Part shown: in pieces, positions 47,721-57,076 of the stretch
Layout of the letters: each line of letters opens with the position of its first letter
Position numbering within the stretch: position 1 is the first letter of the stretch
DNA from: Myxococcales bacterium
GTDB taxonomy: Bacteria > Myxococcota_A > Polyangia > Haliangiales > Haliangiaceae
Assembly: GCA_016794525.1 (NCBI GenBank)
Contig: JAEUJY010000050.1
Coordinates: 1 to 64,000, forward strand
Reading direction: 5' to 3'
Length of the DNA stretch: 64,000 nucleotides
Translations under genes and position numbers: made by a program
Notes under the pieces: model-generated
Told to the model about the DNA's origin: nothing
The model's database searches: none
The model's input: only the letters and a program-made list of their open reading frames with translations

Positions 47721-48506
47721 ATGGGTCGTCCGAAGCCGTTGCCGCCGCCGCGCCTGGTCCGCCACGAGGTCGCGGTGACCGGGCTCGACCCGCGCCACGA
47801 CGGCGTGACGATCGCGCACCTCTCGGACATCCACGTCGGCAACCTGACGCCGGCCAGCCACGTGCGCGCGGCGATCGACCTGGCCAACAGCGTCGCGCCC
47901 GACGTCGTCGCGCTGACCGGCGACTACGTGTGCTGGCGCAAGCACGAGGTCGGCCTGTTGCGCGAGCAGCTCGGCGGCCTGCGCGCGACGCGGGTCGCGG
48001 CGACGCTCGGCAACCACGACTACTTCACCGACGCCCGCGGCGTGCGCGGCGCGCTGGCCTCGCACGGCTACGACGTGCTCGACAACCAGCACACGACCGT
48101 CGAGGTGCGCGGCGCGCCGCTGCGGCTGGTCGGCGTCGACGATCCGGTCACCCACCACGACGACGTCGACGCGGCGTTCGCCGGCGCGGCGTCCGACGAC
48201 GCGCCCGGGGGCGCGCCCGCCGGCACGACGATCGCGCTGTGCCACGACCCCGAGCTGGCGCCGACGCTGATCGGCCGCGGCGCGCGGCTGGTGCTGTCGG
48301 GCCACATGCACGGCGGCCAGATCTACCTGCGCGGCGTCACCGATCGCATCATCGCGCGGATGGGGCGCACCTACCGCCGCGGCTTCTACCCGATCGACGA
48401 CGGCCACCTCTACGTGACGCCGGGCGTCGGCTTCTCGGGCGTGCGGGTGCGCGTCGGCGAGGGCACCGGCTCCGAGGTCGCGGCGTTCACGCTGCGGGCG
48501 GCGTGA
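47721..48506 (+). CDS. Metallophosphoesterase
   Basis: 261 residues. Calcineurin-like motifs in order: SDIHVG (about residue 34), GDYVCW (72), GNHDYF (98), CHDPELAP (175) and SGHMHGGQ (195), a complete dinuclear metal site. The nearest known types are YkuE/YaeI-like phosphodiesterases that act on lipids or cyclic nucleotides. No signal peptide, so it is cytoplasmic or peripheral. Its stop codon overlaps the start of the following kinase by one base (TGATG), indicating translational coupling. TACAGT lies ten bases before the ATG. Confidence 0.9.
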   Translation: MGRPKPLPPPRLVRHEVAVTGLDPRHDGVTIAHLSDIHVGNLTPASHVRAAIDLANSVAPDVVALTGDYVCWRKHEVGLLREQLGGLRATRVAATLGNHDYFTDARGVRGALASHGYDVLDNQHTTVEVRGAPLRLVGVDDPVTHHDDVDAAFAGAASDDAPGGAPAGTTIALCHDPELAPTLIGRGARLVLSGHMHGGQIYLRGVTDRIIARMGRTYRRGFYPIDDGHLYVTPGVGFSGVRVRVGEGTGSEVAAFTLRAA

Positions 48507-49618
48507 TGGCGGACGGGCCGTTGCTGCAGGGGCGCTGGCGCGTCGGCGCGCCGCTCGGCCGCGGCAGCCAGGGCCAGACCTTCGTCGCCGTCGAGGTGGC
48601 CCGGCGGCAGGAGGTCGTGGTCAAGCGGGTCAAGCTGGGCGCCGGCTGGAAGTCGTTCGAGCTGCACGAGCGCGAGACCAAGGTGCTGGGTCAGCTGCGC
48701 CACGCCGGCATCCCGCGGCTGTACGCCGCGTTCGAGGAGCCGGCCGGCACGTTCAACCTGGTGATGCAGCGCATGCCCGGCAGGGATCTGCGCGCGCTGG
48801 TCGGCGCGCAGCGGCTGTCGGAGCTCGAGCTCAAGGACATCCTGGTCCGCGCGCTGGAGATCCTCGACTACCTGGCGACGCGCACGCCGCCGGTGGTCCA
48901 CCGCGACATCAAGCCGTCGAACCTGATCCGCGATCGCGACGGCACGCTGGCGCTGGTCGACTTCGGCGGCGTCGCCGACGGCGCGTCGGCCAACGGCTCG
49001 ACCCTGGTCGGCACCTACGGCTACATGGCGCCCGAGCAGCTCCACGGCCAGGCGACGCCGGCCACCGATCTGTACGCGCTCGGCGCGACGATCGTCGCGC
49101 TGGCCGGCGGGGTCGAGCCCGAGGACGTGCCGCGCAAGGGCCTGGCGATGGATCTGGCCAAGCACCTGCCGGCGATGAGCAAGCCGCTGCGCGACGCGCT
49201 GACCGCGATGGTCGCGCCCGATCCCGATCAGCGGCCGGCGCGCCCGCGCGACGTGCTGGCGCTGCTGGCCAAGGCCCGCGAGCCCGAGCCCGAGCCGCGG
49301 CGGCCGGCGCTGCCGCCGTCGGCGGCGTTGATCGCGCCGGGGTCGCGGGCGATCGCGCGGCCGGTGTTCACCGACATCCCCGAGCCGCTGCGCGCGGCGC
49401 TGCGGCTGGCGCTGCTCGGCGTCGCCGCCGGCGGCTGGGTCGCGCTGACCGTGCTGGCGGTGACCGTGCGCGCGTTCGGCGGGATGATCGGCCTGCTCGC
49501 CGGATCGGTGCGGCGCCCGTCGGTGCGCAGCGCCTCGGCCGACGTCGCCGACGTGTTCACCGACGGCCGCGACGGCTTCGCCGACCTCGCCAAGCGCGCG
49601 GTCGCGCGGCGGCGCTAG
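48506..49618 (+). CDS. Membrane Ser/Thr protein kinase
   Basis: 370 residues. Kinase domain at 10-270: [19 protein letters not shown] with the ATP-binding lysine, [16 protein letters not shown] and [11 protein letters not shown] hydrophobic region at about 305-340 ([33 protein letters not shown]) makes one or two membrane passes, with a short tail of ~30 residues outside or in the membrane. No sensory domain is present, so the cue is unknown. Translationally coupled to the metallophosphoesterase. Confidence 0.9.
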
Positions 49619-49670: not shown

Positions 49671-51026
49671 TCAGTACGGCTCGAAGCGCTGCTTCGACAG
49701 CCGGCGCGCGTTGAGCGCGGTCAGCTCGACGGGGGAGTAGGCGTCGGCGCCGCCGGCCGGCAGGTGGGCGCGGATGAAGCCGATGACCTCCTTGCGCACG
49801 GCCTCGCCGGCGGCCAGCTCCTCGGCGGTGCCCTCCTCGGCGGCGTCGTCCCACAGCTCGAAGATCGCGGCCCGGCGCGCGGCGGCGTCGAGGTCGGCGC
49901 GGGCCCACGCCCGGGCCAGGTGCTTGCGCACGGTGACGGCGGCCTGGGCCAGCTGGCGCTTGCGGTCGGTGGCCTTGAGCTCGAGCCGCTCGGCGCGGGT
50001 CTTCTCGAGCCACGCCCGCTTGGCGTCGGCGTACGGGTCGAGCCCGCCCTGGCGCATGACGAAGTCGGTGATGTCGCCGGTCGCGCCGACCAGCGGCACG
50101 ATCACCTCGTCGATGTCCTCGTCCTCGGGGCGCTCGGGACCGGGCATCGCGATCGGATCGGGATCCGACGGATCGCGCTTGGCCTCGCGCACGTCCTTCC
50201 ACGGATCGTTGTACCAGCCCTCGAGCTTCTTCCCGACGGTGCGCGGCAGCTTGGGCACGACGTCGAGCAGCGGCAGGTGGAACTCGACCGACGGCCGATC
50301 GTGGAATGTCACGTCGCCGTTGCGATCGACGGTGACGGTGAAGCCGGGCTGATCCGATCGGTAGGTGCCGCCGCCGGCGGGGTGCAGCTCGCCCGACTTC
50401 TTGATCGGCGGCGGGGGTGGCGCGCCGCCGCCGAGGTTGGCGCGCTCGGCGACCGCGCGCGGCGACAGATCGACCGGCTGCGGCCCGCGCATGTCGAAGA
50501 TGCTGGTGCCGGGCGGCCCGTCGCCGGTGGGGCCGCCGACGGTGGCGTCGCCGCCGCCGGTGGCCGGCGCCAGCTCGCCGCTCGCCGCGGGGGCGGCCCC
50601 CGCCGGGGTGGTCGCGATCGCCGGGCCCCGGGGCGGCGGGGTGGCGGGCGCGCGGGGGGGCGGCGGCGCGCTGGCGGGCGGCGGCGCGGCGGTGGCGGTG
50701 GCGACGGGCGCGGTCGGCGGCGGCAGCGTGACCAGCGCGATGTCGATGGGCGGCGGCGGCGGCGGGCGATCGAGCACGGTCACCGTCGTCGGCGGGACCC
50801 GCGGCGGCGGCGGCGGCGCGTCGATCGACGCCAGCACCCCCATCAGGCCGACGTGGGCCACGGCCGACACGACCACGGCGAGGGTCCCGAACCGCACCCC
50901 GATAGGACCGGCAACCGGCCGGGATCGTTGCCCGGGGTCGCCGCCCGGCGGATCGCCCGGCGACCCGGGCGACACCCGCGACGAGGTGGCTGACAGTTGC
51001 CGGTGCATGGAGCGAGGACTGGCCAT
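49671..51026 (-). CDS. Proline-rich TonB-like membrane protein
   Basis: 451 residues (a second ATG at 51008 would shorten it by six). One transmembrane helix at about 48-68 (LAVVVSAVAHVGLMGVL), then a long proline-rich rod (about 72-150, several runs of PPPPP) as in TonB and AgmX proteins, and a C-terminal ~200-residue charged region (EGWYNDPWKDVREAKRDPSDPDPIAM; ERLELKATDRKRQLAQAAVTVRKHLA) without a recognised TonB C-terminal fold. It could transduce energy or motion to the outer membrane. It is divergent from the ECF sigma factor gene, which suggests shared control or a common surface system. Confidence 0.7.
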   Translation of the reverse strand: MASPRSMHRQLSATSSRVSPGSPGDPPGGDPGQRSRPVAGPIGVRFGTLAVVVSAVAHVGLMGVLASIDAPPPPPRVPPTTVTVLDRPPPPPPIDIALVTLPPPTAPVATATAAPPPASAPPPPRAPATPPPRGPAIATTPAGAAPAASGELAPATGGGDATVGGPTGDGPPGTSIFDMRGPQPVDLSPRAVAERANLGGGAPPPPPIKKSGELHPAGGGTYRSDQPGFTVTVDRNGDVTFHDRPSVEFHLPLLDVVPKLPRTVGKKLEGWYNDPWKDVREAKRDPSDPDPIAMPGPERPEDEDIDEVIVPLVGATGDITDFVMRQGGLDPYADAKRAWLEKTRAERLELKATDRKRQLAQAAVTVRKHLARAWARADLDAAARRAAIFELWDDAAEEGTAEELAAGEAVRKEVIGFIRAHLPAGGADAYSPVELTALNARRLSKQRFEPY

Positions 51027-51062
51027 GGCCCCACGCGGGGCCGAACCGATCGAGGGGACCCC

Positions 51063-51698
51063 ATGAGCCTACCGCTTGCCGGTGTGCTGTCGCGCCTGTT
51101 TCGCCGTGGCCCCGACGCGCTCTTGCGCGCCGCCGCCGCGGGCGATCAGGACGCGCTCGGCCGGTTGTACGACGACCACGTCGATGGCCTGTACGCGTTC
51201 GTGTTCTACCGGGCCGGCAAGGACGCCAGCCTGGCCGAGGACATCGTCCAGGAGACCTTCGCGGCGGCGCTGGGCCGGGTCGACGACTACGATCCGGCCC
51301 GCGGCTCGATCGGCGCCTGGCTGACGACGCTGTCGCGCAACGTGATCCGCGATCACCTGCGCCACCACCGCCGCGCCGACGAGGTCGCCGATCGCTGGGA
51401 TCGCATCGACGCCTCGCTGGCGCAGATCTACGACGCGCTCGCGCGCACGCCGCTGCCCGGCGACGTGCTGGCCCGCGCCGAGACCCGCGACCTGGTCAAC
51501 ATGACCATCGCCCACCTGCCCGAGCAGTACCGCACGGCGCTGGCGCGCAAGTACGTCGACGGCCAGAGCCTCGAGGATCTGGCCGCCGATCTGGGCGTGT
51601 CGGTCGACGCGGCCAAGTCGCTGCTCGCCCGCGCCCGCCGCGCCTTCAAGGAAACCTTCTCCACCCTGGGCCACGCGCTCAGCGAGGTGCAGCCATGA
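51063..51698 (+). CDS. ECF-type RNA polymerase sigma factor
   Basis: 211 residues from ATG 51063, after a GAGGGG ribosome site. Region 2: LGRLYDDHVDGLYAFVFYRAGKDASLAEDIVQETFAAAL (about residues 35-75) with the WLTTLSRNVIRDHLR promoter-melting helix. Region 4: LPEQYRTALARKYVDGQSLEDLAADLGVSVDAAKSLLARARRAF (about 155-200), a clear helix-turn-helix for -35 recognition. Extracytoplasmic-function sigma factors respond to surface stress through a membrane anti-sigma. The partner is evidently the next gene, which overlaps by 4 bp (ATGA) and carries a FecR domain. Confidence 0.94.
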   Translation: MSLPLAGVLSRLFRRGPDALLRAAAAGDQDALGRLYDDHVDGLYAFVFYRAGKDASLAEDIVQETFAAALGRVDDYDPARGSIGAWLTTLSRNVIRDHLRHHRRADEVADRWDRIDASLAQIYDALARTPLPGDVLARAETRDLVNMTIAHLPEQYRTALARKYVDGQSLEDLAADLGVSVDAAKSLLARARRAFKETFSTLGHALSEVQP

Positions 51699-54600
51699 CC
51701 ACCGACCGCGATCGCGACGACGACGTGCTCGAGCAGAACCTGACGACGCTGCTGGCCGGCTCCGACCCCGCGGCGCCGAGCCCGGCGGCCCGGGCGCGGA
51801 TGCGCGCGCGGCTGGTGGCGCGCCACGGCCAGGCGGCGCCGCGCCGCTCGCCGGTGGCGATCGCCGGCTGGGGGCTGGTGGCGGCGGCGGCCGGCGCGAT
51901 GGTGGTGGCCAACCTCGGCGGCGGCGGCCACGGCGCGCCGCCCGCCCCGCGCGAGGCGCAGGCCAAGGCCAAGGCGTCGACGACGATCGCGCTCGCCGAC
52001 GGCACCACCGCCGAGCTGGGCCTCGGCGGCAAGCTCACCGAGCTGGGGCCGCGCAAGGTCAAGGTCGAGGGCGCGGTGCTGCTCGACGTCGCGCCCGGCG
52101 CGAGCCGCTTCCAGGTGGTCACCGGCGCCGGCGAGCTGTCGGTGCTGGGCACCCGGTTCCTGGTCGAGGCCACCGGCGAGACCACGACGACGTCGGTCCT
52201 GCGCGGCGTGGTCGCGCTTCGCTCGGGCGGGCAGGAGGCGGTGCTGCACGCCGGCGAGCAGGGCGTCATGCAGAAGGGCGTGCGCCCGACCCGCGGCCCG
52301 GCGCCGCGGCTGTCGCACCTGGTGAGCTGGGTGGCCGAGCGCCGCCGGCGCGACGAGCGCCCGGCCGCCGGCCCGATGCGCTCGGGGGCGCTGGTCGCGC
52401 GCAACCCGCAGTGGCAGGAGCAAGAGTTCCCGCTGCCGATGGCGGCGCTCACCGTCGACGTGCAGCTCGAGAACCAGATCGCGCGGGTCGCGCTCGATCA
52501 GACGTTCCACAACCCGCAGGACCAGACCCTCGAGGGCGTCTACAAGTTCGCGCTGCCGCCGGGCGCGGCGGTGTCGCGGCTGGCGATGTACGTCGACGGC
52601 CGGCTCACCGAGTCGGCGGTGGTCGAGCGCATGGCCGCGCGGCGCATCTACGAGGACGTCGTCTACCAGCGGCGCGATCCCGCGCTGCTCGAGCAGATGG
52701 GCAGCGGCAAGGTGTCGATGCGGATCTTCCCGTTGCCGCCGCACCAGGACAAGCGCGTCGTGCTGGCCTACACCCAGCCGCTGGCGCGCACCTACGACGA
52801 TCTGACGCTGACCGTGCCGCTGCCCGAGCTCGACCAGCCGGTCGGCGAGGTCGGCATGCAGGTCAAGGTGGTCGGCTGCGCGGCATGCGAGATCACGTCG
52901 CCGAGCCACGCGGTCGCGGTGCGGCCGGTCGGCGCCGACGCGGTGGTCAGCTACCGCGCGCAGCAGCAGCAGCTGGGCGACTCGCTGGTCCTGCGCGTGC
53001 GCCAGCCGGCGCCGGCGGTGGCGGTGGCGTCGACGATCGCCGACGCGCAGCGCTACCTGCTGGTGCGGGTGCGGCCCGAGCTGCCGGCGACCGAGGTCGC
53101 CGATCGGCCGAAGCGGTGGGTCATCCTCGACGACACCAGCGCGTCGCGCGGCCCGACCGAGCTGCGCGCGCAGGCCGAGCTGATCGATCACCTGGTCGAC
53201 GACATCGACGAGCACGATCAGGTCATGGTGGTGGCGTTCGACGCCACCCACCGCCGCTACGGCACCTGGCAGGACGCGATGGCGATCGATCGCACGGCGC
53301 TGCGCGCGTTCCTGACCAAGGACGCCGGCCTCGGCGAGACCGACCTCGGCCAGGCGCTGGCCGGCGCGGCGCAGCTGCTCGACGGCCAGCCCGGCTACGT
53401 GGTCTACGTCGGCGACGGCGCCGCGACCGGCGAGCGGCGCACGATCGACGAGCTGCGCGACGCGATCGCCGGCAAGGCGACGTTCATCGGGCTGGGCGTC
53501 GGCGACGGCGCCGACCTGACGACGCTGTCGGCGCTGGCCGACGCCACCGGCGGCGTCGCCGCGGCGGTCGACCTCGGCGACGATCTGGCGTGGCGCGCGC
53601 TCGATCTGGTGGCCGCGCTGTACACCGCGCGGATCACCGGGCTGACCGCCAGCCTCGACGGCCCCGGCCCCGAGGTCAGCGCGCTGTTGCGCACCCACCA
53701 GGTGGCGGCCGGCGAGGACATCGAGCTGGTGGTCCGGACGCCGGCCCGGGACGACGTGCGCGCGGTGACGCTGCGCGGCCAGCTCGGCGGGCAGGCGTGG
53801 TCGCAGACCGTCGACCTGACCCGCGCCGCCCGGGCGCCCGGCGACGGCGGCTACCTGCCGCGGCTGTGGGCGCAGCGCCGCCTCGAGGCGCTGCTGACCG
53901 CCGGCGATCGCGCGCTGGCGCCGTGCACGACGGCGCCGTGCCCGACCGACGAGGAGCGGGCGATCGCGGCCTACCACGCGCGCAAGGCCGAGATGGTCGC
54001 GCTCGGCACCGAGCACTTCCTGCTGTCGCAGCACACCTCGCTGATCGTGCTCGAGAACGACGCGATGTACGCGCAGTACGGCGTGCGCAAGGGCAGCGGC
54101 GAGACCTGGGCGCCGTACGCGCTGCCGGCGACCGTGCCGGTCACCGCGACCCCGACGGCGATCGCCGCGGCGCCGCTGTGGCGGCAGCCGCTGGTGTGGC
54201 GCTACCCGACGGGTGAGCAGCTCGACGAGCTGCAGCGCGAGATCGGCGGCGGCGTCGTCGGGCTGGGCCGGATGGGCGCGATCGGCCACGGCAGCGGCAC
54301 CGGCTCGGGCTACGGCTTCGGCGGCGTCGGCAACGGCCGGGGCGGCGGCGGCATGGTCGCGACCCGCGCCACCGCCGAGGCCAAGGTCGGCAAGAAGGAC
54401 GACGCGGCCGGCGAGGACGCGCTCGACGACGGCCTGGCCTACAAGGGCACGGCCTCGCCCGATCCGGCGCCGCCGGCCGACGCCGATCGCGCCGCCGCCG
54501 AGCCGTCGGCCAGCACCGCCGCGATGGATCGCGCGGGTGACAGCAACGCCGCCGCGACCGGCGGGACGGTCGCGGCCGCCGCGCCGCCGGCGACCCCGGC

Positions 54601-57076
54601 GGTGGTCACCGCGACCCCGATGCGCGACGTCGCGCAGAGCCGCACCGAGCCCGACGCGCCGTTCGACCTGCGCGCACGGCGCGCCGGGCCGGCCCAGCCG
54701 ATCGATCAGACGCTCGCGATCGCGGCGCAGCTCGGGCAGCGCCAGCAGGCGATGGCCTGGGGCGGGCTGGCGGTGGGGGGGCGGCTGGTGCCGGTCGCGC
54801 TGCAGTACAGCGGCGACTGGCGGCTCGACGATCTGACCCAGTGGCTGCCCGGCCTGGCGCGCACCGCGGTCGACGACGCGGTGGCGGCGCTGGCCGCCGA
54901 CGGCGGCAGCGGGCGCGGGTCGATCACCGACGACGCGGCCCGGATGCTGACCGCGGCGCGCGCGGCCCGCGGCGCCGGGCGCTGGACCGCCAGCGACGGC
55001 GCGACGATCGCCGTCGACGGCGGCGGCCGCTTCGCGATCCACCGCACCCTCGACGCCGGCGTGGTCGAGGACGCCACCTACGACGGCGCGACGCTGGCCG
55101 TGCGCTACCCCGGCCTCGACGTCGGCGCCGACCGCGCGATCGGCGACCGCGAGCCGGCGCTGCTGGCGGCGGCGCTGCCGCTGGTGGCGCCGCGCCCCGA
55201 GCACCTGGCGCGCTTCTACCGGGTCGCGAAGGTCGGCGATCGCCAGCTCACGCTGACCCCGGTCGCGGGCGGCGCGGTGCGGCGGCTGACCCTCGACGCC
55301 GACGGCGTCGTCGCCGAGCTCGCCGAGCTGCACGGCGCCGACGCCCAGGTCCGTCAGCGGGCGGTGCGCGCCGGCGACGGGTGGGCGGTGACGATCGACG
55401 GCGTGACCACGACGTGGCGGTTCCAGCCCGACGCCAGCGTGCAGATCGCGCCGGCGGCGCTGGCCGCGGTGACGCTCGAGCTGCCGCTCGACAACCTGCC
55501 GCTCGCGGCGCAGCGCGCGGCGGCGGCCGCCGCCGGCTCGCAGGCCTGGCGCCACCTCCAGCACCAGCTGGCCGCGTCGGCGCTCGCGGTCGGCGATCCG
55601 GCGCGGGTGGCGACGGTGGCGCGCGCGCTGGCCACCGCCGGCGCGCTGGCGCCGGGCGAGCTGGCGCTGATCAGCGGCGCCGCGCGCTGGCTCGACGATC
55701 GCACGCTGGCCACGCTGATCGGCGGCCAGGCCGGCGCGGTGGTCGACCACCTGCGGGTGGCGGCGCTCGCCAGCGGCCGGGCCAAGGGCGACGCCGCGCT
55801 GACGGCGCGGCTCGACGCCGAGCCCGGGCTGATCGGCGCGCTGGCCAAGCACCGCCAGCTGCTGACCGCGATCGAGCGCGGCGATCGCAAGGCCAGCGTC
55901 GCGGCGTTCCGCGCGCTCGCCGACCGCGGCGTGAGCGGCCCGCTGCCGGTGATCGCCGGGCTGCGCCTGGCCCAGACCTTCGCCTGGCAGGACCCGACGG
56001 TGGTCGGCCTGCTCGAGCCGATCGCGACCGGCCCGTACCGCAACCTGATCCGCCAGGAGGCCGCGTACCTCGCCGGCTACGGCGGTCGCGCCGGCACCGC
56101 CGCGGAGCGGTGGATCGCCCTGATGACCGACGTCGATCTCGCGGCCGAGCCGCCGGGGATCGACTACACCGCCTACGCGACGGTCACCGCCAGCGCGCGC
56201 GGCGCGCTCGGCTGGACCCAGGCCATGACGGCGTGGCGGCAGCGGGCGCTGGCCAGCGATCGCCTCGATCAGGTGCTGGCGTTCGTCCGCGCGGCGGCGC
56301 TGGCGCCGGGCGACGATCTCGACGCCGGGCTCGACCGCGCGCAGGCGCTGGCCGGCGACGACGACGCGACGGTGGCGCGGCTGTACGTGCTCGCGATCAA
56401 CAGCGGTCGCGCCGCCAAGGCGCAGGCGCTGCTCGACGCTGCGCTGGCCCGCCACCCCGATCGGCCGGCGCTGTTGCGGCTGGCCTCGAGCCGCGCCGCC
56501 AACCTCGGCGATCCGGTCCACGCCGCCGAGCTGCTCGACCGCGCGATGGCCGGCGAGGCCGATCAGCCGGTCGCGCTGACCCAGCTGCGCGACGACTACA
56601 CCCAGCTGATCGCGTTCCACGGCCAGGTGGCGCGCGCGACCACCGGCGCCGCCCGCGACGCCGCGATCGCCGCGGCGCTCGACGCCGGCCGCGACTGGCG
56701 CGCGATGGATCCCGACAACGCCGCGCGCGAGCGTCTGCTGGCCGAGCTCTTGCTCGGGGTCGGCCAGGACGACGAGGCGTGGCGCTACCTGTCGTCGCCG
56801 ATCGATCGCGCGCCGCGCGAGGGCGGGTCGTTCCAGACCGCGGCCGAGGTGCTCGAGCGCGCGGGCAAGCTGGATCAGGCGCTGGGGCTGTGGCGCCGCG
56901 CGTTCGCGATCGACGCCACCAACCCGACCTGGCTGCAGCGCCAGGCGACCACCGAGCTCGCGCTGGGCGACAAGGACGCCGCGCGTGCCACCGTGCAGAA
57001 GATCCTCGACCGCAAGTGGCACGTGCGCTGGGACGGCGTGCGGTACTGGGCCGAGAACGCCCGACGCTCGATGTGA
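51695..57076 (+). CDS. Giant FecR - VIT - VWA - TPR surface signalling protein
   Basis: 1793 residues. A short cytoplasmic N-terminus (1-50, Arg/Asp-rich) and one transmembrane helix (52-75) are followed by a FecR-like domain (94-190: GTRFLVEAT, RGVVALRSGG), a VIT domain (235-365: VALDQTFHNPQDQTLEGVYKFALP), a VWA domain (about 465-640) with an intact MIDAS (DDTSASR, GETDLG, YVGDGAATG), a glycine-histidine motif GRMGAIGHGSGTGSGYG near 857, a disordered Ala/Asp stretch, and ~750 residues of beta-rich then helical repeats. The ATG overlaps the sigma-factor stop, so it is probably its anti-sigma or sensor. The zinc-binding HxxxCxxC of classical anti-sigmas is absent. Confidence 0.88.
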   Translation: MTTDRDRDDDVLEQNLTTLLAGSDPAAPSPAARARMRARLVARHGQAAPRRSPVAIAGWGLVAAAAGAMVVANLGGGGHGAPPAPREAQAKAKASTTIALADGTTAELGLGGKLTELGPRKVKVEGAVLLDVAPGASRFQVVTGAGELSVLGTRFLVEATGETTTTSVLRGVVALRSGGQEAVLHAGEQGVMQKGVRPTRGPAPRLSHLVSWVAERRRRDERPAAGPMRSGALVARNPQWQEQEFPLPMAALTVDVQLENQIARVALDQTFHNPQDQTLEGVYKFALPPGAAVSRLAMYVDGRLTESAVVERMAARRIYEDVVYQRRDPALLEQMGSGKVSMRIFPLPPHQDKRVVLAYTQPLARTYDDLTLTVPLPELDQPVGEVGMQVKVVGCAACEITSPSHAVAVRPVGADAVVSYRAQQQQLGDSLVLRVRQPAPAVAVASTIADAQRYLLVRVRPELPATEVADRPKRWVILDDTSASRGPTELRAQAELIDHLVDDIDEHDQVMVVAFDATHRRYGTWQDAMAIDRTALRAFLTKDAGLGETDLGQALAGAAQLLDGQPGYVVYVGDGAATGERRTIDELRDAIAGKATFIGLGVGDGADLTTLSALADATGGVAAAVDLGDDLAWRALDLVAALYTARITGLTASLDGPGPEVSALLRTHQVAAGEDIELVVRTPARDDVRAVTLRGQLGGQAWSQTVDLTRAARAPGDGGYLPRLWAQRRLEALLTAGDRALAPCTTAPCPTDEERAIAAYHARKAEMVALGTEHFLLSQHTSLIVLENDAMYAQYGVRKGSGETWAPYALPATVPVTATPTAIAAAPLWRQPLVWRYPTGEQLDELQREIGGGVVGLGRMGAIGHGSGTGSGYGFGGVGNGRGGGGMVATRATAEAKVGKKDDAAGEDALDDGLAYKGTASPDPAPPADADRAAAEPSASTAAMDRAGDSNAAATGGTVAAAAPPATPAVVTATPMRDVAQSRTEPDAPFDLRARRAGPAQPIDQTLAIAAQLGQRQQAMAWGGLAVGGRLVPVALQYSGDWRLDDLTQWLPGLARTAVDDAVAALAADGGSGRGSITDDAARMLTAARAARGAGRWTASDGATIAVDGGGRFAIHRTLDAGVVEDATYDGATLAVRYPGLDVGADRAIGDREPALLAAALPLVAPRPEHLARFYRVAKVGDRQLTLTPVAGGAVRRLTLDADGVVAELAELHGADAQVRQRAVRAGDGWAVTIDGVTTTWRFQPDASVQIAPAALAAVTLELPLDNLPLAAQRAAAAAAGSQAWRHLQHQLAASALAVGDPARVATVARALATAGALAPGELALISGAARWLDDRTLATLIGGQAGAVVDHLRVAALASGRAKGDAALTARLDAEPGLIGALAKHRQLLTAIERGDRKASVAAFRALADRGVSGPLPVIAGLRLAQTFAWQDPTVVGLLEPIATGPYRNLIRQEAAYLAGYGGRAGTAAERWIALMTDVDLAAEPPGIDYTAYATVTASARGALGWTQAMTAWRQRALASDRLDQVLAFVRAAALAPGDDLDAGLDRAQALAGDDDATVARLYVLAINSGRAAKAQALLDAALARHPDRPALLRLASSRAANLGDPVHAAELLDRAMAGEADQPVALTQLRDDYTQLIAFHGQVARATTGAARDAAIAAALDAGRDWRAMDPDNAARERLLAELLLGVGQDDEAWRYLSSPIDRAPREGGSFQTAAEVLERAGKLDQALGLWRRAFAIDATNPTWLQRQATTELALGDKDAARATVQKILDRKWHVRWDGVRYWAENARRSM

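Follow-up and report, generated by a model that had tools for sequence, protein, structure and literature searches.

The locus lies in a 9.8-Mb genome assembly whose close kin are Kofleriaceae MAGs (Myxococcota, Haliangiales), and all positions given here are those of the window, that is, the whole stretch of 64,000 nucleotides that was analysed. Three open reading frames make up the locus, and their lengths and coordinates in the original prediction proved exact on recheck. The first encodes an ECF sigma factor of 211 residues (51063..51698, plus strand), the second a membrane protein of 1793 residues that is a candidate anti-sigma factor and sensor (51695..57076, plus strand), and the third, on the minus strand, an anchored protein resembling TonB and TolA (49671..50897, in a frame that extends to 51026). 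The proposed 4-bp overlap between the first two is equally exact, the ATG of the giant protein sharing the sequence ATGA with the stop codon of the sigma gene. The sigma protein comprises sigma regions 2 and 4 only, in about 200 residues, as expected for the ECF group (Pfam Sigma70_r2, 3.5e-17, and r4_2, 1.8e-12; TIGR02937 above cut-off), and its orthologues in Kofleriaceae are 62-89% identical and occupy the same genomic place. An in-frame GTG at 51003 is a possible alternative start. A gene for a protein kinase-like protein (48506-49618, plus strand) lies tail-to-tail with the TonB-like gene, and a kinase-like gene also adjoins the module in loci L044, L046, L049 and L052.

The giant protein begins with a cytoplasmic segment of about 53 residues, followed by a transmembrane helix, a FecR domain, a VIT domain, a VWA domain and a long C-terminal half with TPR-like repeats at its end. 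Only one strong transmembrane helix is predicted, at about residues 54-72 (51854..51910), with arginines enriched on its N-terminal, inside flank, and with this single inner-membrane helix the FecR-VIT-VWA module is predicted to lie in the periplasm. FecR, VIT and VWA had been proposed to be joined in one protein, and all three give Pfam matches above cut-off: FecR at residues 91-173 (3e-9), with a beta fold that continues to about residue 202 (51965..52300 with the fold included), VIT at residues 251-359 (52445..52771; 3.5e-25), and VWA at residues 476-622 (53120..53560; VWA_3, 3.6e-9). A failure of the FecR homology on profile search, which would have undone the original prediction, did not materialise, as the FecR part matches the solved periplasmic domains of the anti-sigma factor PupR (6ovk) and of BDI_1681 (4m0n), a putative Bacteroidetes anti-sigma factor, by both profile and fold. 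By the same two measures, the VIT-VWA part matches the heavy chains of ITIH proteins (best fold match ITIH1, 6fpy, E 3.8e-25), and the fold also resembles integrin headpieces. The order of VIT followed by VWA is that of ITIH, but the latter are eukaryotic secreted heavy chains, whereas a proposed anti-sigma part and a FecR part are present here. At the far end, a family profile places TPR-like repeats from about residue 1525 to near the C-terminus, with the best-scoring unit (TPR_19, above the Pfam cut-off) at residues 1723-1772 (56861..57010). The periplasmic part also carries an invariant CxxC (C395/C398) and a nearly invariant pair, C744/C749, which are possible disulfides or a redox or metal site.

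The pairing of sigma factor and sensor is conserved well outside this genome. Within the family, the two genes are adjacent in 18/18 orthologous loci and overlap by 4 bp in 17 of them. For a wider view, residues 1-827 of the sensor were used as the query for homologues, and named genomes, most of them MAG records, were scanned with patterns derived from the family alignment of this sensor. A very broad sensor alignment was also tried as the source of patterns and was rejected when no stretch of it was conserved enough. The scan fetched 76 loci, the presence of a sigma gene not being a criterion, and 58 of these could be evaluated, having both FecR and VIT and enough upstream sequence. An ECF sigma gene lies directly upstream in 57 of the 58: 20/20 in Myxococcota, 1/1 in Verrucomicrobiales (a MAG) and 36/37 among the other loci, nearly all of them from Planctomycetota. 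Additional FecR-VIT-VWA proteins of the same class, at paralogous loci, also sit behind ECF sigma genes. Adjacency, overlap and conservation of the neighbouring gene, the features of an ECF sigma/membrane anti-sigma pair, are thus all present, and the sigma-sensor pair is a dedicated one that recurs well beyond the gene order common to close relatives, albeit in a sample made up mostly of MAGs and scanned with patterns from this family. The synteny survey called for by the original prediction came out in its favour, with the order of sigma and sensor genes holding across genera and even phyla; its opposite, a sigma gene beside unrelated genes in relatives, was not what we found.

Several variants of the module were encountered along the way. 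Kofleriaceae contain a second, paralogous ECF plus FecR-VIT-VWA system (loci L063-L066, L068, L072 and L074), whose N-termini, where read (L063-L066 and L068), carry a zinc-type anti-sigma motif resembling Hx3Cx2C; the host genome has seven VIT proteins, and no copy of this system was found among them. Planctomycete sensors (L107-L155) have at least two further types of cytoplasmic domain, 'LIDAMCD...' and 'DDLFRNRIAAAL...', and mostly lack the metal-ion-dependent adhesion site (MIDAS). At loci L031, L056, L058, L060, L061 and L073, FecR-VIT-VWA-like proteins have lipoprotein- or signal-peptide-like N-termini with no sigma gene detected nearby, and they are likely to represent a sigma-free version of the module.

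The part of the giant protein proposed to restrain the sigma factor is the short segment on the cytoplasmic side of the membrane. This segment (residues 9-44, 51719..51826) carries a motif, [DE]xN[VIL]xxLL...P...ARxR[IM]xxxL, that is conserved in 19 orthologues and falls on two predicted helices at residues 9-21 and 30-44, in a model of low confidence (pLDDT about 40-70). Its distribution follows that of the sigma subfamily. A pattern search finds it in 32/35 loci with a close sigma subfamily, at least two of the three negative loci showing it by eye, and in 0/25 loci with distant sigmas. More distant relatives combine this periplasmic module with other cytoplasmic parts, including one with the zinc motif Hx3Cx2C, and same-class FecR-VIT-VWA relatives that have no sigma gene are lipoprotein- or signal-peptide-like and have no cytoplasmic part at all. 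Locus L071 is an exception, with a sigma gene beside a lipoprotein-like version that lacks an anti-sigma domain. Taken together, the pairing with a sigma gene, a motif that tracks the sigma subfamily and the exchange of one anti-sigma domain for another make it very probable that the giant protein is a one-protein anti-sigma sensor, which probably keeps the sigma factor inactive. The features of class I anti-sigma domains, either Hx3Cx2C or a bundle of about four helices, are not seen in the 1793-residue protein. The Cnr system, which senses metals through CnrX, provides a likeness in layout, in that CnrY/CnrH also relies on a short two-helix cytoplasmic segment. Class II domains are short segments whose two helices bind sigma4 and sigma2. 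The class II anti-sigma factor CnrY inhibits with two helices (PMC7406223), and going by the modelled helices, it is plausible that the segment described here belongs with the class II (CnrY-like) domains.

The divergent gene differs in several respects from its original description. Conservation of the encoded protein begins not at the ATG at 51026 but at an invariant valine encoded by a GTG at 50897, which is probably the real start. The 36-bp gap said to separate this gene from the sigma gene is therefore an annotation artefact of an over-extended reading frame, and the intergenic region measures about 165 bp from the GTG. The label 'TonB-like' is apt for the front of the protein, where an N-terminal transmembrane helix with a Ser-x3-His pattern (invariant in 11/11 orthologues) is followed by a proline-rich stretch, as in TonB and TolA. 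The pattern belongs to the SHLS motif, the point of contact of TonB and TolA with ExbB and TolQ (PMC12215075). Unlike TonB and TolA, however, the protein ends in an all-helical domain that is confidently predicted and matches no known family; a TonB_C domain at this end was considered and rejected, since neither Pfam nor searches with PDB profiles and by fold gave a match to it. In a sample of 284 Myxococcota genomes, 31 encode this C-terminal domain, so far seen in Myxococcota, and most of the domain-bearing loci that were read have the same transmembrane and proline-rich layout. As to the proposed membership of this gene in the system, it is a conserved divergent neighbour of the sigma gene in most Kofleriaceae loci with sequence to judge, but that association has so far been seen only in Kofleriaceae, and even there no such gene lies beside the sigma gene in L049 and none was found in L055. 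In eight loci examined outside the family that encode the domain, no sigma gene lies within short flanks. Facing the gene on the minus strand is an ECF-type promoter-like element, GGGCAAC-N17-GGTC (50906..50933), with a spacing that is fixed in most orthologues and the GTG start about 8 nt downstream. This element is not specific genome-wide (23 matches versus 5 in the control), and we therefore claim no regulon from it.

Another element lies upstream of the sigma gene itself. The promoter-like sequence CGACACC-N14-TGACA (50970..50995, plus strand) has a fixed spacing upstream of nearly every orthologous sigma gene, and its core, GACACC-N14-TGACA, occurs six times in the host genome, versus none for a reversed control. 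One copy is that of the sigma gene, and the other five each have a start codon 33-35 bp downstream. The genes so marked encode proteins of 121-301 residues, all with signal peptides or lipoprotein signals and several rich in cysteine; none of the five has a Pfam match. Enrichment extends to seven genomes of the genus (39 matches versus 3 in the control) and, with a longer pattern, to 28 Kofleriaceae genomes (40 versus 2). Twelve of the non-self sites are followed by a start codon at +33 to +35, and each of these 12 precedes a gene for an exported protein, as judged across the family by a simple hydrophobicity criterion. The element is also common to homologous pairs between species (L159/L221, 64% identical; L161/L201, 59%; L194/L212, 34%), and several sigma genes start at +34 or +35 from it. 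Several other matches have no start codon at +33 to +35, and because not all matched sites share this geometry, some of them must be chance. A search allowing two mismatches and anchored on ATG was discarded for returning mostly chance-like sites. We infer that the element is recognised by this sigma factor, and the simplest reading of these patterns suggests an autoregulated sigma factor with a small envelope regulon of exported proteins expressed from near-leaderless transcripts.

A few loci with this element deserve separate mention. Exported and often cysteine-rich proteins are encoded behind it at L188-L192 and L272, the latter holding two tandem paralogues with one element each. Another recurring context is found at L198, L200, L214 and L264, in three congeneric genomes and one from a different genus; TAGACC precedes the element in three of these four, and at L198, L214 and L264 the element precedes a gene for a signal-anchor protein of about 490 residues that mostly starts further downstream.

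With the pieces assembled, we think it probable that the locus encodes an ECF sigma/anti-sigma system that is autoregulated and keeps watch on the cell envelope, the giant protein being both anti-sigma factor and sensor. According to this model, the two-helix N-terminal segment would hold the sigma factor at the inner membrane, and one transmembrane helix would link it to some 1700 residues in the periplasm, where FecR, VIT-VWA and TPR together would form a sensor that binds a protein partner in the periplasm or outer membrane. Altered binding of the partner would free the sigma factor, most likely through regulated proteolysis at the FecR/transmembrane region as in FecR and RseA systems, for which such proteolysis is documented (PMC9249621). 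The freed sigma factor would then transcribe its own operon and a few genes for secreted proteins and lipoproteins from CGACACC-N14-TGACA promoters. More speculatively, the divergent TonB/TolA-like protein might transmit force from a motor to either the sensor or its partner. Gene order and its conservation, domain make-up, the motif and the geometry of the regulon are observed; sigma binding, sensing and proteolysis are what we infer. The self-contained sigma/anti-sigma system originally envisaged draws its support from the FecR homology and from pairing across genera and phyla.

Of the alternatives, classical signalling of the FecI/FecR type fares best, though we consider it unlikely. Here, an unlinked TonB-dependent outer-membrane transducer would contact the FecR domain, and VIT-VWA-TPR would be accessory. 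The locus does resemble PupI/PupR in having an ECF sigma factor with an adjacent single-helix anti-sigma protein and a periplasmic FecR domain homologous to that of PupR, and an anchor protein of the TonB/TolA type is encoded divergently. However, neither the locus nor its conserved neighbourhood contains a gene for an outer-membrane transducer with a signalling domain, and the predicted regulon includes no receptor genes. In addition, the cytoplasmic part is only about 50 residues long with a motif of its own, about 1500 residues of VIT-VWA-TPR come after FecR, and the divergent protein, which lacks TonB_C, has so far been seen to accompany the pair only in Kofleriaceae.

The original prediction went in a different direction, proposing that adhesion signals to transcription, with the VWA MIDAS binding an extracellular ligand. 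Its premise of an intact site is correct: the DxSxS...T...D motif of MIDAS-dependent adhesins is present, and D480, S482, S484, T549 and D574 are invariant in 19 Kofleriaceae orthologues. The site is intact in Verrucomicrobiales and some planctomycete homologues as well, and the likeness to ITIH heavy chains and integrin headpieces would suit an adhesive role. The conclusion drawn from it nevertheless appears improbable to us, given that the protein has one inner-membrane helix and no element that crosses the outer membrane, which would put the module in the periplasm, and that most planctomycete homologues replace these residues (D480 by E, T549 by L, and D574 by A, S, T or G) while retaining the sigma gene; the FecR-VIT-VWA module is also used by relatives with no sigma gene. 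Periplasmic topology and the loss of MIDAS with retention of the sigma gene are more in keeping with a protein-protein sensor that reads the state of the envelope than with an adhesin at the cell surface. Finally, VIT-VWA and TPR being common protein-interaction modules, and sigma-free lipoprotein versions and the L071 arrangement being on record, the giant protein might be a structural scaffold of the envelope whose gene simply shares a transcript with the sigma gene, a target of the sigma factor and not its inhibitor, but this is very improbable in the face of a conserved cytoplasmic segment that goes with the sigma subfamily and gives way in paralogues to a zinc anti-sigma motif.

The preferred reading, of a one-protein anti-sigma sensor for the envelope, has precedents. 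ECF/anti-sigma pairs and FecR domains are known, as in principle are anti-sigma factors that are their own sensors, such as RsgI and RsiV. RsgI of Clostridium thermocellum is a large multi-domain anti-sigma factor for an autoregulated sigma factor (PMC4711584), and as is proposed for the protein described here, it combines a cytoplasmic inhibitor, a transmembrane helix and a C-terminal sensor module in one large chain. It differs in partnering SigI instead of an ECF sigma factor, in carrying carbohydrate-binding modules instead of VIT-VWA-TPR and in facing the Gram-positive cell surface instead of a periplasm. Our literature search found no ECF system with VIT-VWA-TPR for its sensor and no mention of FecR together with 'VIT domain', and the papers that mention anti-sigma, VWA domain and sigma factor together concern other subjects, judged by text or title; tables in ECF classification and planctomycete papers may mention the architecture. 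With members in three or more bacterial phyla, the gene pair looks like a widespread and apparently undescribed means by which bacteria gauge the state of their envelope. A bolder version, which we hold only tentatively and rather doubt, treats FecR-VIT-VWA-TPR as a transferable periplasmic cassette for sensing that in Myxococcota, Planctomycetota and Verrucomicrobiota has become attached to a number of unrelated anti-sigma domains and sigma subfamilies. It would form an undescribed class of envelope signalling, and in Kofleriaceae a motor protein of the TonB/TolA type would control the release of the sigma factor by mechanical gating.

Bacteria sense their surroundings to a large extent through ECF systems, and the sensor is often unknown. 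The locus provides a candidate inhibitor segment together with predictions of a promoter sequence and of a regulon made up of exported proteins. VIT-VWA, best known from ITIH proteins, is here likely to serve as the periplasmic sensor of a signalling system, and one domain cassette recurs as the likely sensor beside ECF sigma factors in phyla that do not lend themselves easily to study.
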